The notes under the pieces: generated by a model
The model's input: the letters and a program-made list of their open reading frames with translations, nothing else
What the model was told of the DNA's origin: nothing
The model's database searches: none
Part shown: in pieces, positions 33,388-43,719 of the stretch
Layout of the letters: every line of letters begins with the position of its first letter
How positions within the stretch are numbered: position 1 is the first letter of the stretch
From: Hymenobacter cheonanensis
Lineage (GTDB): Bacteria; Bacteroidota; Bacteroidia; Cytophagales; Hymenobacteraceae
Direction: 5' to 3'
Assembly: GCF_030581075.1 (NCBI RefSeq)
Contig: NZ_JAUQSW010000004.1
Coordinates: 1 to 64,000, forward strand
DNA: 64,000 bases
Program-made: the position numbers and the translations under genes

Positions 33388-33479
33388 AAGACCGGCCGGG
33401 CCGGGGCCGAACAACGCCGCGCCAGTTCGGTTAGCCCGGTAGTTTGCTACTTCGTCAACCCCGAAACCCGTTACGTTTT

Positions 33480-34439
33480 ATGGAGCCCTTACTCGCCGAA
33501 AACCCCAACCGTTTCGTCCTCTTTCCCATTCAAAACCCGCAGGTGTGGGAGTTTTACAAGAAGGCGGAAGCCTCGTTCTGGACGGCCGAGGAAATTGACC
33601 TCTCGCAGGACCAGAAAGACTGGAACGGCCTGAACGACAACGAGCGCCATTTCATCAAGCACGTGCTGGCGTTCTTCGCGGCTAGCGACGGCATCGTGAA
33701 TGAGAACCTGGCCATCAACTTCATGCAGGAAGTGCAGATGCCCGAGGCGCGCTGCTTCTACGGCTTCCAGATTATGATGGAAAACATTCACAGCGAAACC
33801 TATTCGCTGCTGATTGATACCTACATCAAAGACCCCAAGGAAAAGGATTACCTCTTCAACGCCCTCGAAACAGTGCCCGCCGTGCAGCGCAAGGGCCAGT
33901 GGGCGCTGACGTGGATTAACTCCGAGAATTTTGCCGAGCGCCTCATTGCGTTTGCGGCCGTGGAGGGCATCTTTTTCTCGGGCTCGTTCTGCTCGATTTT
34001 CTGGCTGAAGAAGCGCGGCCTCATGCCCGGCCTCACGTTCTCGAACGAGCTGATTTCGCGCGATGAGGGGCTGCACTGCGATTTTGCCTGCCTGCTCTAC
34101 AGCTACCTCGAAAACAAGCTGCCCGAGGAGCGCGTGCAAGCCATTATCCGCGATGCGGTGACGATTGAGCAGGAGTTTGTGACCGATGCGCTGCCCGTGA
34201 GCCTCATCGGCATGAATGCCCGCACCATGAGCCAGTACATCGAGTTTGTGGCCGACCGCCTGCTGGTGTCGCTAGGGTGCAGCAAGATTTACAACGCCAG
34301 CAACCCCTTCGATTTCATGGAAATGATTTCGGTGCAGGGCAAAACCAACTTCTTCGAGAAGCGCGTGGCCGAGTACCAGAAAGCCGGTGTGATGACCGAG
34401 CGCGCCGACAATATGTTCTCGCTCGACGAGGATTTTTAG
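33480..34439 (+). CDS. nrdB: Ribonucleotide reductase class Ia small subunit
   Basis: Holds the di-iron/tyrosyl radical that starts ribonucleotide reduction. 319 aa from [12 protein letters not shown]. The ligands fit the eukaryote-like R2 pattern: D70, E101 and H104 ([11 protein letters not shown]), radical Tyr108, then E-x2-H in the second half ([14 protein letters not shown]). The C-terminal tail FSLDEDF is the peptide that docks on NrdA. nrdA follows 560 bp downstream behind a terminator, so the two are not tightly co-transcribed. A DnaA-box cluster is upstream. Confidence 0.97.
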
Positions 34440-34998: not shown

Positions 34999-37374
34999 AT
35001 GCTCGTAATCAAACGCGATGGCCGCCGTGAGTCGGTCAAGTTCGATAAAGTAACCGCCCGCATTGAGAAACTTTGCTACGGGCTTAATCAAAATTTCGTG
35101 TCGCCCATCGAGGTGGCCAAGAAGGTCATCGACGGCATCTACGATGGCGTGACGACCGTCGAACTCGACAACCTGGCGGCGGAGACGGCCGCTTCGCTGA
35201 CCACCCGGCACCCGGACTACGCCATCCTGGCGGCCCGCATCGCGGTGAGCAACCTGCACAAGGTGACCTCGAAGTCGTTTTCGAGCACCATGAAGCGGCT
35301 GTATACCTACGAGGACCCCAAGAATGGCGACAACGCCTCGCTGATTGCCAAGGACGTGTGGGAGGTGATTCACAAGCACGCGCACACCCTGGACTCGGCC
35401 ATTATCTACGACCGCGATTACAACTACGACTTCTTCGGCTTCAAGACCCTGGAGCGCTCGTACTTGCTGCGCCTTGATGGCAAGGTGGTGGAGCGGCCCC
35501 AGCACATGCTGATGCGCGTGTCGGTGGGCATTCACAAGGACGACATCGACTCGGCCATCAAGACCTACAACATGATGAGCGAGCGCTGGATGACCCACGC
35601 TACGCCGACCTTGTTCAACGCCGGCACGCCCAAGCCGCAGATGTCGTCGTGCTTCCTGCTCACGGTGAAGGACGACTCGATTGAGGGCATCTACGAGACG
35701 CTGAAGGACTGCGCGCTGATTTCGCAGAGCGCAGGCGGCATCGGGCTGGCCGTGCACAACGTGCGCGCCACGGGCTCCTACATTAAGGGCACCAACGGCA
35801 ACTCCAACGGCTTGGTGCCGATGCTGAAGGTGTTCAACGATACGGCCCGCTACGTGGACCAGGGCGGCGGCAAGCGCAAGGGTGCGTTCGCCATTTACCT
35901 GGAGCCCTGGCACGCCGACATTTTCGAATTCCTGGACTTGAAGAAGAACCACGGTAAGGAAGAAATGCGCGCCCGCGACTTGTTTTACGCCCTCTGGACG
36001 CCCGACTTGTTTATGAAGCGCGTGGAAGCCAACGGCGACTGGACGCTGATGTGCCCCCACGAGTGCCCCGGCCTCGACACCACCTGGGGCCCCGAGTTTG
36101 AGAAGCTCTACACCAAGTACGAGCGCGAGGGCCGCGGCCGCAAGACCATCAAGGCGCAGGAGCTGTGGTTCCACATTCTGGAAAGCCAGACCGAGACGGG
36201 CACGCCCTACATGCTCTTCAAGGACGCCGCCAACGGCAAGAGCAACCAGCAGAACCTCGGCACCATTAAGTCGAGCAACCTCTGCACCGAGATTATGGAG
36301 TACACCGACAAGGACGAGATTGCGGTGTGCAACCTTGCCTCGCTGGCGCTGCCCCGCTACCTCGTGGAAGATGCCCAGGGCAACCTGACCTTCGACCATA
36401 AGACGCTCTACGACATCACGTACCAGACTACCTTGAACCTCAACAAGGTAATCGACGTGAACTACTACCCGGTGCCCGAAACCGAGCGCTCCAACTTCCG
36501 CCACCGCCCCATCGGGCTGGGCGTGCAGGGCCTGGCCGACACGTTTATTGCCCTGCGCATGCCCTTCGAAAGCGACGAAGCCAAGGGCCTGAACGAGGAC
36601 ATTTTCGAGACGATTTACTTCGCCGCCATGACGGCCTCGAAGGACCTCGCCATGAAGGACGGGGCCTACGAAACCTTCCCCGGCTCGCCGCTTTCCAAAG
36701 GAATCTTCCAGTTCGATATGTGGGGCGTGACGCCCAAATCGGGCCGCTGGGACTGGGACACCCTGCGCGGCCAGGTAGTGGAGCACGGCGTGCGCAACTC
36801 GCTGCTGGTGGCGCCCATGCCCACCGCCAGCACCGCCCAGATTCTGGGCAATAACGAGTCGTTTGAGCCCTACACCAGCAACATTTATGTGCGGCGCGTG
36901 CTCAGCGGCGAGTTTATGGTGGTGAACAAGCACCTGCTGAAGGACCTGGTGAAGCTGGGCCTCTGGAACGAGCAGATGAAGCAGGACATCATCGCGGCCA
37001 ACGGCTCGGTGCAGGGCATTGCCCGCGTGCCGCAGCACATCAAGGACCTGTACAAGACGGTGTGGGAGATTTCGCAGCGCACCATCATCGACATGGCCGC
37101 CGACCGGGGTGCCTACATCTGCCAGAGCCAGAGCCTGAACCTGCACGTGCAGAACCCCAACTTCGGCAAGCTCACCAGCATGCACTTCCACAGCTGGAAG
37201 CGCGGCCTCAAAACCGGCATGTACTACCTGCGCACCAAAGCCGCCGCCGACGCCATCAAGTTCACGGTGGAAAAGCAAGCCGCCGAAACCCTGGAGCCCA
37301 TGTACGCCCAGAACCAAAGCGACATGGCCTGCTCGCTCGATAACCCGGACGCCTGCGAGGCCTGCGGTTCGTAA
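34999..37374 (+). CDS. nrdA: Ribonucleotide reductase class Ia large subunit
   Basis: Catalytic and allosteric subunit making dNDPs from NDPs. The 791-aa protein begins with an ATP-cone ([29 protein letters not shown]), the overall activity switch. Active-site features include [45 protein letters not shown] and [19 protein letters not shown]. The redox-active C-terminal pair is CEAC, near the end (DACEACGS). Eukaryote-like subtype, matching NrdB. A terminator and then the AT-rich RT insert follow directly. Confidence 0.98.
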
Positions 37375-37404
37375 GAAGTTTTAGGCAAAAATAAATCTAA
37401 AATA

Positions 37405-37436
37405 AAAGGAGGGGGTATTTGCTCCCTCCTTTTTTT
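37405..37436 (+). terminator. Terminator after nrdA, abutting the RT start
   Basis: AAAGGAGGG (about 37405-37413) pairs with CCCTCCTTT (about 37424-37433), followed by more T. It ends 5 nt before the RT ATG. Its left arm contains AGGAGG, a perfect Shine-Dalgarno word that the stem would hide, though 29 nt from the ATG is too far for normal use. Confidence 0.75.
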
Positions 37437-37441
37437 AATAT

Positions 37442-38386
37442 ATGCCAGCTATAACGCCTGATTTGAAAAGAGTTTGTAGCCTTTCTAATCTTAGAAAGGC
37501 TTGGAATCGTATTAATAGTTCTCGTAAATACGATTATAAGAACTATTTCAGGCATTTATACAAATCTTATGAGATTTCACTAGAAGATAATCTTAGGAGT
37601 ATTAGGGAGAGACTCAAAAGTGGTACTTACAAACCAAGTCATGCTGTTAAAATATATCTTCCTAAAAAGTCTGGATTACTTAGGGTATTTAGTTTGTTAT
37701 CAGTTGAAGACCAAATAGTATATCAAGCTTTTGGTAATATTGTGGCTGAGAACCTTAGTTCGAAAGCTCGTGCGCACTATAATTCGAATAATTTTGGTCA
37801 TCATTTTGCAGGTGTTCACTCAGAGTTTTTTTTCAAACCTTGGGAAATAGGTTATAATAAATTCAAAAGCGAATTTAAAAAATCATTTCGTGCAGGGCTT
37901 ATATACACAGCTACATTCGATTATACAGCGTTTTATGATACAGTGGACCACAGCGTCCTTTCTCATTTGCTAGAGGATTTAAGATTTACTCCTGAGTTTT
38001 GTCAGAATATCATAGAATATTTGAAATATTGGACTTGTACAGAGCCATGTGAGGCTAAATACCATAGTCACGGGATACCTCAAGGACCTCTTACGTCAGG
38101 AATCTTCGGTGAGGTTATGTTGACCTATGTCGATACTACATTTTGCAAAGGGCCACAACCGTATCGTTACATGAGATATGTTGATGATATAAGAATTTTA
38201 TCTGTGGACGAGCTGGGTGTAAAAAAAGCAGTTATGCGGTTAGATATATTAAGTAAGCGAATAGGCCTTTTCCCTCAAGCAAGTAAACTCAGTTTACATA
38301 AGATTACTGATATTGATTCTGAGCTTAAAAACGTTAGTAATATTGGCGAGCTAAACGTAATAAAGGAAAAAATATTAGCTACCTGA
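37442..38386 (+). CDS. Reverse transcriptase (Abi/DRT-like), N-terminal reading frame
   Basis: A 314-aa RNA-directed DNA polymerase domain. The N-terminus LKRVCSLSNLRKAWNRIN resembles bacterial RT leaders. Fingers: KIYLPKKSGLLRVFSLLSVEDQIVYQAFGNIVA (parts of 70-102). Motif A: TATFDYTAFYDTVDHSVL with D160. Motif B: HGIPQGPLTSGIFGEVML (210-227). Motif C: YVDD (246-249, MRYVDDIRIL), both aspartates intact. A motif D-like part is RLDILSKRIGLF. No maturase/X domain or HNH of group II introns is seen, and no room exists upstream for a retron msr-msd. The frame ends at TGA 38384-38386, but the protein evidently continues in the next frame (see the frameshift site), making it the front part of an AbiA-like protein. 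Confidence 0.9.
   Translation: MPAITPDLKRVCSLSNLRKAWNRINSSRKYDYKNYFRHLYKSYEISLEDNLRSIRERLKSGTYKPSHAVKIYLPKKSGLLRVFSLLSVEDQIVYQAFGNIVAENLSSKARAHYNSNNFGHHFAGVHSEFFFKPWEIGYNKFKSEFKKSFRAGLIYTATFDYTAFYDTVDHSVLSHLLEDLRFTPEFCQNIIEYLKYWTCTEPCEAKYHSHGIPQGPLTSGIFGEVMLTYVDTTFCKGPQPYRYMRYVDDIRILSVDELGVKKAVMRLDILSKRIGLFPQASKLSLHKITDIDSELKNVSNIGELNVIKEKILAT
38365..38373 (+). other. A6 run: probable -1 frameshift site in the RT gene
   Basis: GGAAAAAAT: six A at 38367-38372. In the RT frame the codons are GAA AAA ATA and a stop comes four codons later. A -1 shift on AAA, or one additional A, gives E-K-N-I-S-Y-L-N-D-I-R-K and joins without loss to the downstream frame. That frame is open from 38341 (a TAA stands at 38338), so the crossover must lie in 38341-38383. 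It may be a real mutation, a base-calling error in a homopolymer, or programmed slippage. Confidence 0.75.
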
Positions 38387-38445
38387 ATGATATTAGGAAA
38401 ATAATAAAAGATGGGAAGGTTCTTGATGAAACTTCATTCAAGTAC

Positions 38446-39594
38446 ATGTTAGCTCGCGTTCCTAATGAAACTAGGTTGGAGAAGAAGTGTGTTGAAGTTC
38501 TTCTTAATCAGCCTAATTTATGTGATTCAGTTGTCAGGTATCTGGCTAATAGGGACTTTTTAAATGATTCAATAGCTGACCTTATATTAAAGTTTATCTC
38601 GGAAACAAATTTATACGAAGAAGTTACTGCAAAATGTTTGCAATTAGCTTTGAATAGAATAAAGTCGGTAGAATTAAAAAATGCATTCAGTGAATTTTGT
38701 CTGGAATCGTTAAGGAGAAATGAAATAAGTTCCCTAAATCTTAAAGCTCAGATTTATGCCTGGGTACTCAAAACGGTTGCACTGAAATTTAATGATTTAG
38801 AAAGTATTTTAGTATCTGAGGAAAGTTGGGTCATTCATAATATTATCAATGAAATTGATTTATCTCTTTATGGAAAGCCTTCGTACGCCTCGATTATTAA
38901 TAATCTGCTTACGCATAAAAATTCTGATGTTCAAGCTTATGCCTCGTATCTCGCAATAGAAGCTGAAATAGATGTAACGGCTAATACTAGTAATATTGGA
39001 CTTTTAGCTAAAGCATCTTTACGAAAAGCTGGAAAAATATCTGGCAGCATTGCAAGAGCAAGTACAATATCAGAATCCCTATCATATATCGTTGGTCTAA
39101 GCTTGTCTGAGTGTAATTGGAAAAAGTTCTTTGGTGTAAATCACAGCAAGGTTGAGCACCAGATACTGATGTGTAAGTCATACATAAGGAGTAATCCGAC
39201 TGCATTTATAAATCAATTAGATTCATTTAATGAATTAGTTCTGAACTCATTATTTCCTCTAGACCAAAGACTTGGAAATTATCAACTCGGAGGTATTGGA
39301 GGATTTGTGAATACTCCTACTTGTTCTTTAGCAAAAAATCACCCTGATATTTATAAGATGTGTGAAGGCGTGCATTTATTAAGGAAAGAATCAGAGCTTT
39401 CTCATCCTATAGTGAGAAAAAGTACAAAAGACAGGACAGCTTTGCGCTTTACTAGGACTATAGCATTTTCCGAAGTCAAAAAGTTGAAGCCAGTGATGCA
39501 AGCGGCTGCTATAGCAATTGTAGATTTTGTTTTCCAAAACACAAATAGTCTTAAAGTAACAAAAGGCGGTGTGATTAGTGAACTCAAGAATTGA
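38446..39594 (+). CDS. C-terminal part of the RT protein: helical domain with HEPN-like motif
   Basis: 382 aa from the first ATG, but the frame is open from 38341 and the extra upstream residues (NISYLNDIRKIIKDGKVLDE) read as protein, so this is the continuation of the RT, not an independent gene. It is almost wholly helical with HEAT-like stretches (SDVQAYASYLAIEAEIDV at 160-177). Near the end is R313-x6-H320 (LLRKESELSHPIVRK), which fits the R-x4-6-H signature of HEPN ribonucleases. RT plus helical repeats plus terminal HEPN is the layout of lactococcal AbiA. Same low GC as the RT. An independent start at 38446 remains possible. HEPN identity is tentative. Confidence 0.7.
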   Translation: MLARVPNETRLEKKCVEVLLNQPNLCDSVVRYLANRDFLNDSIADLILKFISETNLYEEVTAKCLQLALNRIKSVELKNAFSEFCLESLRRNEISSLNLKAQIYAWVLKTVALKFNDLESILVSEESWVIHNIINEIDLSLYGKPSYASIINNLLTHKNSDVQAYASYLAIEAEIDVTANTSNIGLLAKASLRKAGKISGSIARASTISESLSYIVGLSLSECNWKKFFGVNHSKVEHQILMCKSYIRSNPTAFINQLDSFNELVLNSLFPLDQRLGNYQLGGIGGFVNTPTCSLAKNHPDIYKMCEGVHLLRKESELSHPIVRKSTKDRTALRFTRTIAFSEVKKLKPVMQAAAIAIVDFVFQNTNSLKVTKGGVISELKN

Positions 39595-39630: not shown

Positions 39631-39670
39631 CCCAGCCGCTGCCGCCCCCGGTAGCGGCTGTCGTGTTTTT
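39631..39670 (+). repeat. Shared hairpin, copy 1
   Basis: Arms AGCCGCTGCC and GGTAGCGGCT with one G-T pair, loop GCCCCC, then GTCGTG and T5. It begins 37 nt after the RT C-terminal stop codon and marks the right edge of the AT-rich insert. Probably an intrinsic terminator. Four near-identical copies follow within 3.4 kb. Bases 39671-39793 hold no other recognised feature. Confidence 0.85.
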
Positions 39671-39793
39671 GGGGGGAGCGGGCGGGACGCACTTGGTACC
39701 TTAGTCGCATGGAAACGCCAGCTTCGGCGGCGAGGGGGGGCGTAGCTTGCGGGATAACTGACTGGAATTTGCGCTTATCAAACCTTACGTCTT

Positions 39794-40207
39794 ATGAAGC
39801 TTCTGATACTTGGAATCATTTTTCTTCTAATCTCCTCAAGCAGCGATAGCCGGGCGCAAGGCCAGTCGGTCCGGCTCGTTCGGGTAGAACGCGAATACTT
39901 GAGGGACTTGGACGACGGGAAAGAGTGCGTCCCGATAGAAATAGGCCGAAAGAAGGGCGAACAACTGGATTTGGTATTGCCTCCTTTGTATCGAAACTCA
40001 GTTTCTATTTGGGACGAAGAGAACTGGCGTAAGTTTTTCAAGCGTGATAACCCTTATCAGCCAATTCAGCGAACCGGAAGCGGCGAGAACGACGAGAGAA
40101 AGGAAATTGTCTTGCACTTGAGCAAGCTGAAAGACGGGACTTATTACGTTTGGCTTGTTGGCGACTCTGTAGGGGGAACTTTTCAAATTCACTTAAAGAC
40201 AGAGTAG
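39794..40207 (+). CDS. Hypothetical exported protein
   Basis: 137 aa. A signal peptide (LLILGIIFLLISSSSDSRA) is followed by a domain with many charged residues and a C-terminal strand pattern LSKLKDGTYYVWLVGDSVGGTFQIHLKT resembling a small beta-sandwich. No family recognised. Base composition is intermediate, clearly less GC-rich than the core genome. It stands alone between hairpin copies 1 and 2, the latter 14 nt after its stop. Confidence 0.65.
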   Translation: MKLLILGIIFLLISSSSDSRAQGQSVRLVRVEREYLRDLDDGKECVPIEIGRKKGEQLDLVLPPLYRNSVSIWDEENWRKFFKRDNPYQPIQRTGSGENDERKEIVLHLSKLKDGTYYVWLVGDSVGGTFQIHLKTE

Positions 40208-40221
40208 TATCCTTGACTTCA

Positions 40222-40261
40222 CCCAGCCGCAGCCGCCCCCGGTAGCGGCTGCCGTGTTTTT
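40222..40261 (+). repeat. Shared hairpin, copy 2
   Basis: AGCCGCAGCC / GGTAGCGGCT with one A-A mismatch and one G-T pair, loop GCCCCC, then GCCGTG and T5. Starts 14 nt after the preceding gene. Confidence 0.85.
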
Positions 40262-40285
40262 GGAGGCTAGCGCTATTTTTAGAGC

Positions 40286-40738
40286 ATGGATAATTTCTCA
40301 CCATCAACAGTGCAGTACTTGACTGAAGCGGGGTGGTATGCTGGCCGCAAAGTCTCGCTTGTCAAGTATCGAGCTTACTTAGAAGGCGAAGGATATACTT
40401 GGTTTTCAAAGGCAGCAGAGTTTTTGGAGGAGTTTGGGAACTTGCTAATAAAATTTAGAAGAGCATCTGGTGAAATAAATACGCTGGACTTTGATGCCTG
40501 CGAGGCTAGCGCTAGCTTCGATTCATACTGGGTAAGAGAAAATTATTCTAAACGCCTAGGGCGCTCACAGTTTTGTGTGATTGGGCAAGCCTATGGCAGC
40601 CATCTGCTGCTCTTTATGGATGACGAAGGCAAGGTGTACGGAGGCTTTGATGAATTCCTATGCCTAGTAGATGTTAGCGGAGAAGAGGCTATTGAGGTTA
40701 TCTGCTCCAACCGTTCTATAATAGAGATTCCAGAATAG
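40286..40738 (+). CDS. SUKH-3-like immunity protein
   Basis: A 150-aa cytosolic protein resembling the SUKH-3 group. These are immunity proteins of polymorphic toxin systems that neutralise a cognate nuclease or other toxin. Matching segments are AAEFLEEFGNLLIKFRRASGE, FDSYWVRENYSKRLGRSQFCVIGQAYG and LLLFMDDEGKVYGGFDEFL. No toxin gene is adjacent, so it is an orphan, useful against toxins of competing strains or retained from a decayed locus. Lower GC than the core. Flanked by hairpin copies 2 and 3, the latter 3 nt after its stop. Confidence 0.72.
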   Translation: MDNFSPSTVQYLTEAGWYAGRKVSLVKYRAYLEGEGYTWFSKAAEFLEEFGNLLIKFRRASGEINTLDFDACEASASFDSYWVRENYSKRLGRSQFCVIGQAYGSHLLLFMDDEGKVYGGFDEFLCLVDVSGEEAIEVICSNRSIIEIPE

Positions 40739-40741
40739 CCC

Positions 40742-40780
40742 CCCAGCCGCTGCCGCCCCGGTAGCGGCTGCCGTGTTTTT
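40742..40780 (+). repeat. Shared hairpin, copy 3
   Basis: AGCCGCTGCC / GGTAGCGGCT with loop GCCCC, then GCCGTG and T5. Immediately after the SUKH-3-like gene. Confidence 0.85.
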
Positions 40781-40787
40781 GAGGGAG

Positions 40788-40992
40788 TCCGGTAGGGCAG
40801 GGGGGCCGACGCCCGGCCTTAGCGGACGTCCGGTAGGGCGGCGAACCGGGCGCGCGGGCTTACCGGACGTCCGGTGGGGCCGGGGGTGCGGCGCGGGGCC
40901 TTACCGGACTTCCGGAAGGGCGGCGGCCCTGGCTACCGGGCCTGCCGGACGTCCGGCCGGGCGGGCGGCCGGGCGCGCCGGCCTACCGGAGG
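40788..40992. repeat. Five-unit 41-bp GC-rich tandem repeat
   Basis: Five exact 41-bp periods start at 40788, 40829, 40870, 40911 and 40952. Each starts TCCGG-NN-GGG and ends with a variant of TACCGGACG, so every junction forms a small palindrome ACCGGACG-TCCGGT. The middles are diverged but keep length. 41 is not a multiple of 3, and the overlapping ORF is Gly/Arg/Pro low-complexity, so this is not coding. The remainder of the 40739-41102 gap (40993-41102) shows only a TATCTTAC promoter-like word near 41070. Confidence 0.88.
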
Positions 40993-41102
40993 GCGGCGGG
41001 GGCAAGGTGAGCCATTGCCCGGGGTAGCGGCCTTGCGGCCAGCGCCACTACCTGGCGGCAAGCATTATCTTACGGGCGTATTCACGTATTCCCACATTCC
41101 TC

Positions 41103-42118: not shown

Positions 42119-42156
42119 CCCAGCCGCTGCCGCCCCGGTAGCGGCTGGCGTGTTTT
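42119..42156 (+). repeat. Shared hairpin, copy 4
   Basis: AGCCGCTGCC / GGTAGCGGCT with loop GCCCC, then GGCGTG and T4. The sequence after it (AAGCGGGCGGGGC) resembles that after copy 1 (GAGCGGGCGGGAC), so similarity extends beyond the stem. Confidence 0.85.
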
Positions 42157-42225
42157 GGAGGGGCAAGCGGGCGGGGCGGTATGTTTACCTGGTCAAAACA
42201 ACTAAACCAATAGCTGCCTCCTGGC

Positions 42226-42996
42226 ATGGGGAAGAAAATACTCGCAGTGCTGCTTCTATGGGCCGCTACGCTGCCTACTAGCTGCGCGCAGACTAAAACG
42301 GCAGGCGCTCCGGAAACCAAGAAAATCAGCGCTGCCCTAAAAGAGTTGCTACCCGCTGGTGCGCTGCAAGTAGCCGCCATGGATAGCGTTGTGATGAACC
42401 CACGGCTGGCAGTGCTGCTGGCAAAATTTCAGGAAGGAATCCGCGCCAATCCGCAGTACATAATTGAGATGCAGAACAAGGCCGCTACACGAAAGCCCGG
42501 CCCGATGCCTTATGATAAACGCTCAGGCATGAGCGAACCCGAGTTTCGGGAGTTAGAAACGCTCATGGAGAAGCGGGAGATAAAGGTGGCGCCTTCTTAT
42601 ACTGGCACCTTACAGGTGGAGTACACTGCCAATACTATTCATTTCAACGGAACAGGCCGCTTAAGCATGCTGAATGAGGTATGGCTAGACCTGGACAAGA
42701 ACGAGGCCCATTTTTTAAGCTACATCTTGCCCTACAAGAAGCTGGTAACCGTGAGCGACGCCAAAAATGCTTACGATAGCGCGTGGACGGCTTACGAATG
42801 GGAGTTGAGCGAGCCTGCCGACGAGAGCTTTGAAAGCATGAGCCTGGAGAAGTTGCGGGCAATGCATTTGCTGCAGGTGCAGTTTGAGATAGGTACCCTG
42901 GCCACAACGGGTAAAACACTACTCAAGCTCAAAGCTCGGGAAATCGACAAAGGCAAAAAGAAGTACGCTGTTGATACGCCGTTTTTTGTGCAATAG
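42226..42996 (+). CDS. Hypothetical lipoprotein
   Basis: 256 aa. The signal LAVLLLWAATLPTSC has a lipobox-like end at C20. The mature part is mixed alpha/beta with QVEYTANTIHFNGTGRLSMLNEVWLDLDKNEAHF and a helical segment rich in Glu (EWELSEPADESFESMSLEKL). No family recognised. GC is lower than in the neighbouring core. It occupies the space between hairpin copies 4 and 5 alone. Confidence 0.65.
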   Translation: MGKKILAVLLLWAATLPTSCAQTKTAGAPETKKISAALKELLPAGALQVAAMDSVVMNPRLAVLLAKFQEGIRANPQYIIEMQNKAATRKPGPMPYDKRSGMSEPEFRELETLMEKREIKVAPSYTGTLQVEYTANTIHFNGTGRLSMLNEVWLDLDKNEAHFLSYILPYKKLVTVSDAKNAYDSAWTAYEWELSEPADESFESMSLEKLRAMHLLQVQFEIGTLATTGKTLLKLKAREIDKGKKKYAVDTPFFVQ

Positions 42997-43016: not shown

Positions 43017-43052
43017 CCGGCCGCTGCCGCCCCCGGTAGCGGCTGGCTTGGT
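43017..43052 (+). repeat. Shared hairpin, copy 5 (degenerate tail)
   Basis: GGCCGCTGCC / GGTAGCGGCT with loop GCCCCC, then GGCTTGGTT: the T-run is broken, so termination would be weak. Last copy and right limit of the array, 20 nt after the preceding stop. Confidence 0.8.
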
Positions 43053-43101
43053 TGAGAGGCTAGCGCGGGCAAACCCCCTTCTTAGCCGGCGGCTCGCGCA
43101 G

Positions 43102-43134: not shown

Positions 43135-43719
43135 ATGCATCCGTTGTTTGCTTACCTGCGCCGCTTCGTGCCCGCCCTCACCGAGGCCGAGTGGCAGCTA
43201 CTGGCCGGGGCCGTGCGGCCCTGCCACCTGGCGCGCGGCCAGCACTTTGTGCAGGCCGGCGGCTACCGGCCCGAAATAGCCCTGCTGCTCCAGGGCACCT
43301 GCCGCCTGTACTACCTGCGGCCGAATGGCGAGGAGCGCACCACGTACTTCTTCTTCGAAAACCACCTGCTGGCCGACTACCCGAGCTGCCTGGCGGGCCA
43401 GCCGAGCCAGCTTAATATTCAGGCCCTGACCGAGGCGGACCTGGTGGTGTTCGACTACGCGGTGCTGCGGCAGCTCTACGACGAGTGCCCGGCCTACGAG
43501 CGGTTTGGGCGCGTGCTGGCCGAGTTTCACCTGCTGGGCACCGATGCCCGCCTCACCGAGCAGCTCATTCTCTCGCCCGAGGAGCGCTACCGGGCGCTGC
43601 TGGCCAGCGGCAAAACCAAGATTCTGGAGCGCATTCCGCAGCACCTGGTGGCCAATTACCTCGGCGTCACGCCGGTGTCGCTCAGCCGCATTCGGGCGCG
43701 GGTGGCGCGGGGGCGCTAG
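43135..43719 (+). CDS. Crp/Fnr-family transcriptional regulator
   Basis: 194 aa. The N-terminal cyclic-nucleotide-binding-like beta-roll (about 20-115) has EIALLLQGTCRLYYLRPNGEERTTYFFFENHLLADYPS, without the full phosphate-binding R-S-A cassette, so cAMP binding is unlikely. The C-terminal winged helix (about 150-190) contains RIPQHLVANYLGVTPVSLSRIRAR. This short subtype is common in Bacteroidota, and targets are often neighbouring genes. No cysteines for an Fnr-type cluster. Regulon unknown. Confidence 0.9.
   Translation: MHPLFAYLRRFVPALTEAEWQLLAGAVRPCHLARGQHFVQAGGYRPEIALLLQGTCRLYYLRPNGEERTTYFFFENHLLADYPSCLAGQPSQLNIQALTEADLVVFDYAVLRQLYDECPAYERFGRVLAEFHLLGTDARLTEQLILSPEERYRALLASGKTKILERIPQHLVANYLGVTPVSLSRIRARVARGR

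Follow-up and report, generated by a model that had tools for sequence, protein, structure and literature searches.

Among the reverse transcriptases (RTs) of the UG/Abi type, AbiA of Lactococcus (PDB 8OZ7) consists of an RT domain, a helical solenoid and a C-terminal bundle with an R-x6-H motif. It forms a dimer that is held by its HEPN domain and synthesizes untemplated DNA; the HEPN domain is needed for activity, its motif (RNSNPVSH) is likewise of the R-x6-H type, and it did not act as an RNase on any of the RNAs tried (PMC11077055). Class 1 UG/Abi RTs have been described as homo-oligomers with a template-free, protein-primed synthesis (PMC13275509). Abi-P2, AbiK and DRT4/UG15 also have an RT followed by a helical domain. 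Here we describe an RT gene in a window of 64,000 nucleotides from Hymenobacter cheonanensis (contig NZ_JAUQSW010000004.1, positions 1 to 64,000), which lies directly behind the ribonucleotide reductase gene nrdA and is distributed over two reading frames. To judge from its sequence, this RT is a member of the known UG19 group of UG/Abi defence-type RTs. UG19 has been named among RTs in the literature by a classification tool, and what is new here is a frame-broken member with an AbiA-like layout, while the group itself was already known. We consider it reasonably probable that this is a horizontally acquired defence-type RT, placed as first cargo behind nrdA, and that its intact form acts like AbiA, AbiK and Abi-P2. 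The features of the gene are the following:

37442-38386, plus strand: N-terminal half of the UG19 RT (palm and fingers), 314 residues, PADLOC RT_UG19 with E 3.3e-117; the stop codon is out-of-family
38177-38188, plus strand: YVDD motif, within the N-terminal open reading frame (ORF)
38367-38372, plus strand: A6 run; here or close by, the frame shifts back by a single base (both halves aligned with 21 unbroken relatives)
38341-39594, plus strand: open frame of the UG19 C-terminal half, in the next frame; first ATG at 38446, 382 residues; PADLOC RT_UG19 profile positions 327-561, E 1.6e-24
38428-39093, plus strand: predicted alpha-solenoid (HEAT-like) region, from an AlphaFold2 model of the C-terminal half (pLDDT 87)
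39118-39543, plus strand: predicted C-terminal helical bundle, HEPN-like (model helices 252-273, 278-299, 327-342 and 368-393)
39382-39405, plus strand: R-x6-H motif (RKESELSH), R at 39382-39384 and H at 39403-39405, both invariant in the 21 relatives

An earlier, sequence-only reading of this DNA had described an RT palm with YVDD and motifs A and B, followed in the next frame by a helical region and a terminal R-x6-H. The first part was confirmed in sequence and coordinates (motif A TATFDYTAFYD, motif B HGIPQGPLTSG, with the motif A aspartate and the catalytic YVDD present), and the second by the open frame and by structure models. The same reading held that the group may be new and proposed a profile search with the joined protein; since a single PADLOC family, RT_UG19, accounts for both halves, the group is a known one. 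The N-terminal half matches the 562-position model over residues 3-294 with 390.9 bits, compared with 159.4 bits for the next-best PADLOC model, UG21, and the C-terminal half, for which UG19 is the sole PADLOC match, reaches 84.9 bits. In a PADLOC search of the whole genome, the identical adjacent pair of ORFs was found and nothing else near that score, and AbiA was not among the PADLOC matches listed for the ORFs of the window.

A scan of species genomes returned 23 related loci at 39-47% identity, among them loci of Verrucomicrobiota, Planctomycetota, Pseudomonadota, Actinomycetota, Acidobacteriota and Bacillota, and in addition three weaker ones. Each of the 21 full-length relatives is one unbroken ORF of about 685-695 codons, and three relatives were counted as shorter solely through the choice of start codon. 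Two UG19 copies were found on viral contigs; among the matches listed, a plasmid search gave general RT matches only (<31% identity), and a phage search gave at most 33% identity. A maximum-likelihood tree, also proposed beforehand, joins the window RT and the 21 UG19 rows with a support of 100/99, away from a comparison set of 14 other RTs that leaves out named UG1-UG28/Abi reference sequences, and the UG19 clade stands on a stem of 2.64. With the group, the window gene shares the single model for both halves, the domain order, the R-x6-H and the RT motifs of the 21 relatives. It differs by its broken frame, by FDY in motif A in place of FDL (21/21 relatives), by a short insertion and a longer C-terminus, and by its own branch of 0.88, the longest end branch among the 22 UG19 rows of the tree.

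The predicted layout of RT, solenoid and C-terminal R-x6-H bundle resembles AbiA. For an intact relative, L037, an AlphaFold2 model based on the 21-row alignment (pLDDT 83.9, pTM 0.86) has the palm and the fingers, helix pairs arranged as a solenoid, two long helices (553-575 and 579-600) and a further helix (628-643) with the invariant R641 at its end; H648 lies just beyond, and the last helix comes thereafter. The model of the C-terminal half of the window gene gives the same fold picture, with R340 and H347 at the helix end. R641, H648 and D587 are invariant in the relatives, as are the RT motifs, and since the R-x6-H columns are kept in 21/21 relatives whose identity to the first alignment row is 36-74%, the motif is not there by chance. 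Pfam HEAT_2 was matched by two relatives (best 2e-4). A Foldseek search with the full L037 model found group II RTs, DRT4/UG15, DRT9, AbiA (8oz7, E 8e-7), Abi-P2 and AbiK, the best E values for Abi-P2, AbiK and DRT4/UG15 being about 1e-5 or lower. From these three, UG19 differs by its R-x6-H bundle; from AbiA, it differs as a separate group, and no sequence-level link was found in the UG19 solenoid or bundle.

According to the models, the C-terminal R-x6-H bundle is likely a HEPN domain. The earlier proposal of a HEPN domain thus stands in part, as the invariant motif and the fitting fold agree with it, and profile and PDB sequence searches do not. The structure prediction bore out the expected HEAT-like solenoid and helical bundle, and left HEPN unmatched: with the C-terminal half alone, Foldseek gave, among the matches listed, only weak HEAT-like and other helical proteins and no HEPN, none of them at E <= 0.001. 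The proteins of the window and the C-terminal halves had no match to PF18732 (HEPN_AbiA_CTD), and when 296 genomes of the phylum were searched for the C-terminal domain of AbiA, only other large proteins were matched, all of them below threshold.

An intact UG19 protein would work like AbiA, AbiK and Abi-P2. It may oligomerize via its helical and C-terminal parts and make protein-primed, template-independent DNA, and phage growth would be blocked. The R-x6-H bundle may then be a HEPN domain for dimer formation or for the binding of nucleic acid, and possibly an RNase. The layout and the absence of a conserved partner gene fit such a mechanism of the AbiA or class 1 type: among the 21 UG19 loci, a partner gene recurs in 5 at most, and those that recur most often belong to type I restriction-modification (R-M) systems. 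Type I R-M genes adjoin UG19 in L036, L037, L040, L051 and L052, and Eco57I-type methylases in L045 and L046 (for L040, L046 and L052, neighbours were assigned by similarity to scanned proteins). These genes beside the relatives support a defence role for UG19. The initial view that the gene is a foreign phage-defence RT appears well founded in this respect, as the UG19 match, the R-M neighbours of the relatives and the defence-rich locus all point to it.

Several points weigh against this interpretation. The best PDB sequence matches are group II RTs, and UG19 sequence profiles run against the PDB likewise score best with group II RTs and do not reach AbiA; group II RTs also head the Foldseek list, with low whole-chain TM scores. 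Neither Pfam, searched with the C-terminal halves and the last ~140 residues, nor a PDB sequence search with three profiles gave a credible match to HEPN, and a literature search found no report of an experimentally tested UG19 system. Finally, the gene is split in this genome.

What alternatives exist for a UG19 RT that acts in the manner of AbiA? The RT could be a DRT of a class-2-like kind, dependent on a non-coding RNA or a partner gene, as are DRT2, DRT3 and DRT9. The Foldseek match to DRT9, which equals the matches to the Abi proteins, would speak for it, but the above-described lack of a partner gene in more than 5 of 21 loci, and the fact that no Rfam family matches in the window (no systematic search for conserved non-coding DNA beside UG19 was made) render this rather improbable. 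For a remnant of a group II intron or retron RT, the PDB sequence matches mentioned above could be quoted, but hardly any room is left for it: group_II_RT_mat of NCBIfam (TIGR04416) reaches 77.6 bits where its cut-off is 300, and retron-TIR, as the only listed model of a retron RT, 12.2 bits where its cut-off is 600; UG19 scores higher than either of them, and the Rfam scan of the window found no RNA family and hence no intron or retron RNA. The profile scores refute such a remnant, and the statement that the gene lacks the hallmarks of group II introns and retrons thus held.

The UG19 RT with an AbiA-like mode of action being the preferred interpretation, the frame break needs an explanation. 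It is absent from the sequence-only reading, and the gene is broken here and intact in the 21 full-length relatives. The alignment with these relatives runs in one frame up to ...GELNVIKEK and then in the other frame from ISYLNDIRK..., and as the spacing between conserved blocks is preserved, the two frames are offset by a single base, at the A6 run or close to it, without any larger loss. On either side of the break, the window gene keeps 72 of the 76 residues that are invariant in the relatives, which speaks for a break of recent date or an error in base calling and, with less likelihood, for frameshifting. Most likely, a recent frameshift has made the allele in this genome inactive; the exceptions would be a base-calling error, or slippage at the A6 run that yields small amounts of the full-length protein. 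The lack of a continuous frame bears on whether the allele works, not on its descent. That the split is an error of sequencing or assembly at the homopolymer, and that the organism carries an intact UG19 gene of about 717 residues, is a possibility on the unlikely side: a single frame step at the A6 run without any other lesion, the conserved residues and the draft state of the assembly (22 contigs) are all compatible with it, but in L054, a second UG19 locus, an otherwise intact gene has a single in-frame stop just before YVDD, and single-lesion UG19 alleles may therefore be real. Far less probable is a programmed -1 frameshifting on the A6 run that yields a short RT and the full protein. A slip on Lys AAA, which precedes an Ile ATA that is putatively rare, would bring the ribosome back into the family frame, but no canonical X-XXY-YYZ slippery heptamer is seen in the zero frame at the run, the downstream RNA is no more stably folded than shuffled sequences (z -0.12), and the gene is split in 0/21 full-length relatives. 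Without heptamer and downstream fold, programmed frameshifting is the least likely of the explanations for the break.

The sequence-only reading had also noted an AT-rich insert beside a housekeeping gene, which proved correct: the guanine-cytosine (GC) content of the RT insert is 39%, compared with about 60-65% in the surroundings, and the neighbour is nrdA. The left side of the insert is arranged as follows:

33444-34439: nrdB, a gene of the window
34999-37374, plus strand: nrdA, large subunit of class I ribonucleotide reductase (PF02867, 4e-215; PF00317; PF03477), left border of the insert
37404-37438, plus strand: strong intrinsic-terminator-like hairpin with a 13-bp stem and a T run, behind nrdA and ahead of the RT start codon

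We compared the nrdA flanks of 57 genomes of the genus, taken to be Hymenobacter. The similarity between genomes stops at the nrdA stop codon (30 of the 57 genomes inspected), and the first 600 bases thereafter have a mean GC content of 42%, versus 60% for nrdA and 61% for the right flank, with less than 50% in 46/57 genomes. The proteins in first cargo position fall into 35 clusters in 53 genomes. Pfam and PADLOC matches of 64 cargo ORFs include AbiJ/Abi_C, AbiLi, NsnA, AriA, PD-T4-2, pAgo, HEC-01, SIR2, CAP12-TIR, RloB, GmrSD and DUF3800, and these ORFs match 191 PADLOC families, versus 1 for 64 right-flank ORFs; as the ORF sets were unmatched in length and the tally is of families matched, this is a contrast of families, not of genes. 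By these profile matches, the cargo behind nrdA appears strongly enriched in defence families. A special link between the RT and nrdA was rejected as main idea, as other genomes of the genus hold other cargo at the same spot. In open-licence papers, we found defence hotspots of other genera, and none behind nrdA.

A terminator behind nrdA is expected. In the window, the segment 37375-37441 folds with -23.1 kcal/mol (z -4.2), and its hairpin stops a few bases short of the RT start codon. A terminator-like hairpin is found within 200 bases past the nrdA stop in 39/57 genomes, versus 18/208 right-flank windows and 9/285 shuffles, and it differs between genomes, which suggests that it arrived together with the cargo. 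Other genomes of the genus, too, often have the terminator first and the cargo start next. It is possible that the cargo is expressed by terminator read-through, and in many loci the cargo might need such read-through, as caused by phage antitermination or stress.

Two further observations concern the nrdA gene itself. In nine genomes (G034, G043, G052, G024, G012, G050, G047, G045 and G031), a second copy of the last ~35 nrdA codons lies 0.6-1.1 kb downstream, as if the elements carried their own nrdA 3' end. Moreover, synonymous sites of nrdA are unusually conserved across the genus, with seven genomes unscored there, over ~170 bases that end roughly 75 bases before the stop codon, and some of the codons concerned run counter to the local preference.

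To the right of the RT, a hairpin repeat with the core CCAGCCGCTGCCGCCCC(C)GGTAGCGGCTG occurs in five copies, each behind ORFs and all on the plus strand, and at the same threshold it is found nowhere else in this genome. It bounds the following units:

39632-39680, plus strand: hairpin repeat copy 1, where the RT unit ends on the right
39794-40207, plus strand: unit 2 ORF without assigned function; the unit is shared with another genome of the genus (85%)
40223-40271, plus strand: hairpin repeat copy 2
40286-40738, plus strand: unit 3 ORF, SUKH-3 immunity protein (Pfam PF14433, 2.6e-16)
40742-40790, plus strand: hairpin repeat copy 3
42119-42167, plus strand: hairpin repeat copy 4
42226-42996, plus strand: unit 5 ORF without assigned function; the unit is shared with another genome (82%)
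43017-43065, plus strand: hairpin repeat copy 5, the last before DNA that is conserved in close relatives
43135-43719: Crp/Fnr-family gene, in DNA conserved among close relatives

Unit 4 contains a GC-rich block of 41-base tandem repeats (40788-41012). The hairpin repeat is present in 22/61 genomes, nearly always behind nrdA, and a more sensitive scan found it in 26/57 nrdA flanks. Between genomes, the units align from repeat to repeat and their order varies (a-b-c-d in L093, b-a-c in L094); unit d recurs in L090 and L095, units 2 and 5 of the window recur in L092 and L143, and many units lack a counterpart in other genomes.

These observations bring to mind integron cassette arrays, which likewise have short repeats of the same orientation behind ORFs and units that are reordered between genomes. 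Unlike in integrons, no integrase IntI (TIGR02249) scored above the cut-off in any of 61 genomes, which is why the integron reading was rejected, and no attC core (RYYYAAC / GTTRRRY) was seen at the repeat ends by eye, without a dedicated attC model. With core defence hotspots, the nrdA locus has in common that exchangeable defence genes occupy one fixed chromosomal spot, and it differs from both in that the array is anchored at the nrdA stop codon. The RT may be looked upon as part of a defence cassette system that is anchored at nrdA throughout the genus and whose repeat-bounded units move and reorder without an integron integrase, a view for which we see as much reason to believe as to doubt. 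From species to species, the first slot past the nrdA stop would then mostly hold another gene, AT-rich in most cases and often with its own terminator, and repeat-bounded units would follow in about half of the genomes, some of them moving whole between species. At a guess, homologous recombination could bring about this movement, with the hairpin repeats and the unusually conserved nrdA 3' segment as its sites.

For the RT family, these results would place UG19 next to AbiA as a second candidate for a fusion of RT and HEPN-like domain, and with the invariant R-x6-H bundle, it becomes testable whether this domain has a structural or an RNase role. More than the RT, it is the nrdA hotspot that would surprise a specialist. 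With its fixed position behind an essential gene and with mostly single defence genes that differ between most species, the locus would supply new compact defence systems, and it would be a natural test of how defence genes move without an obvious recombinase.
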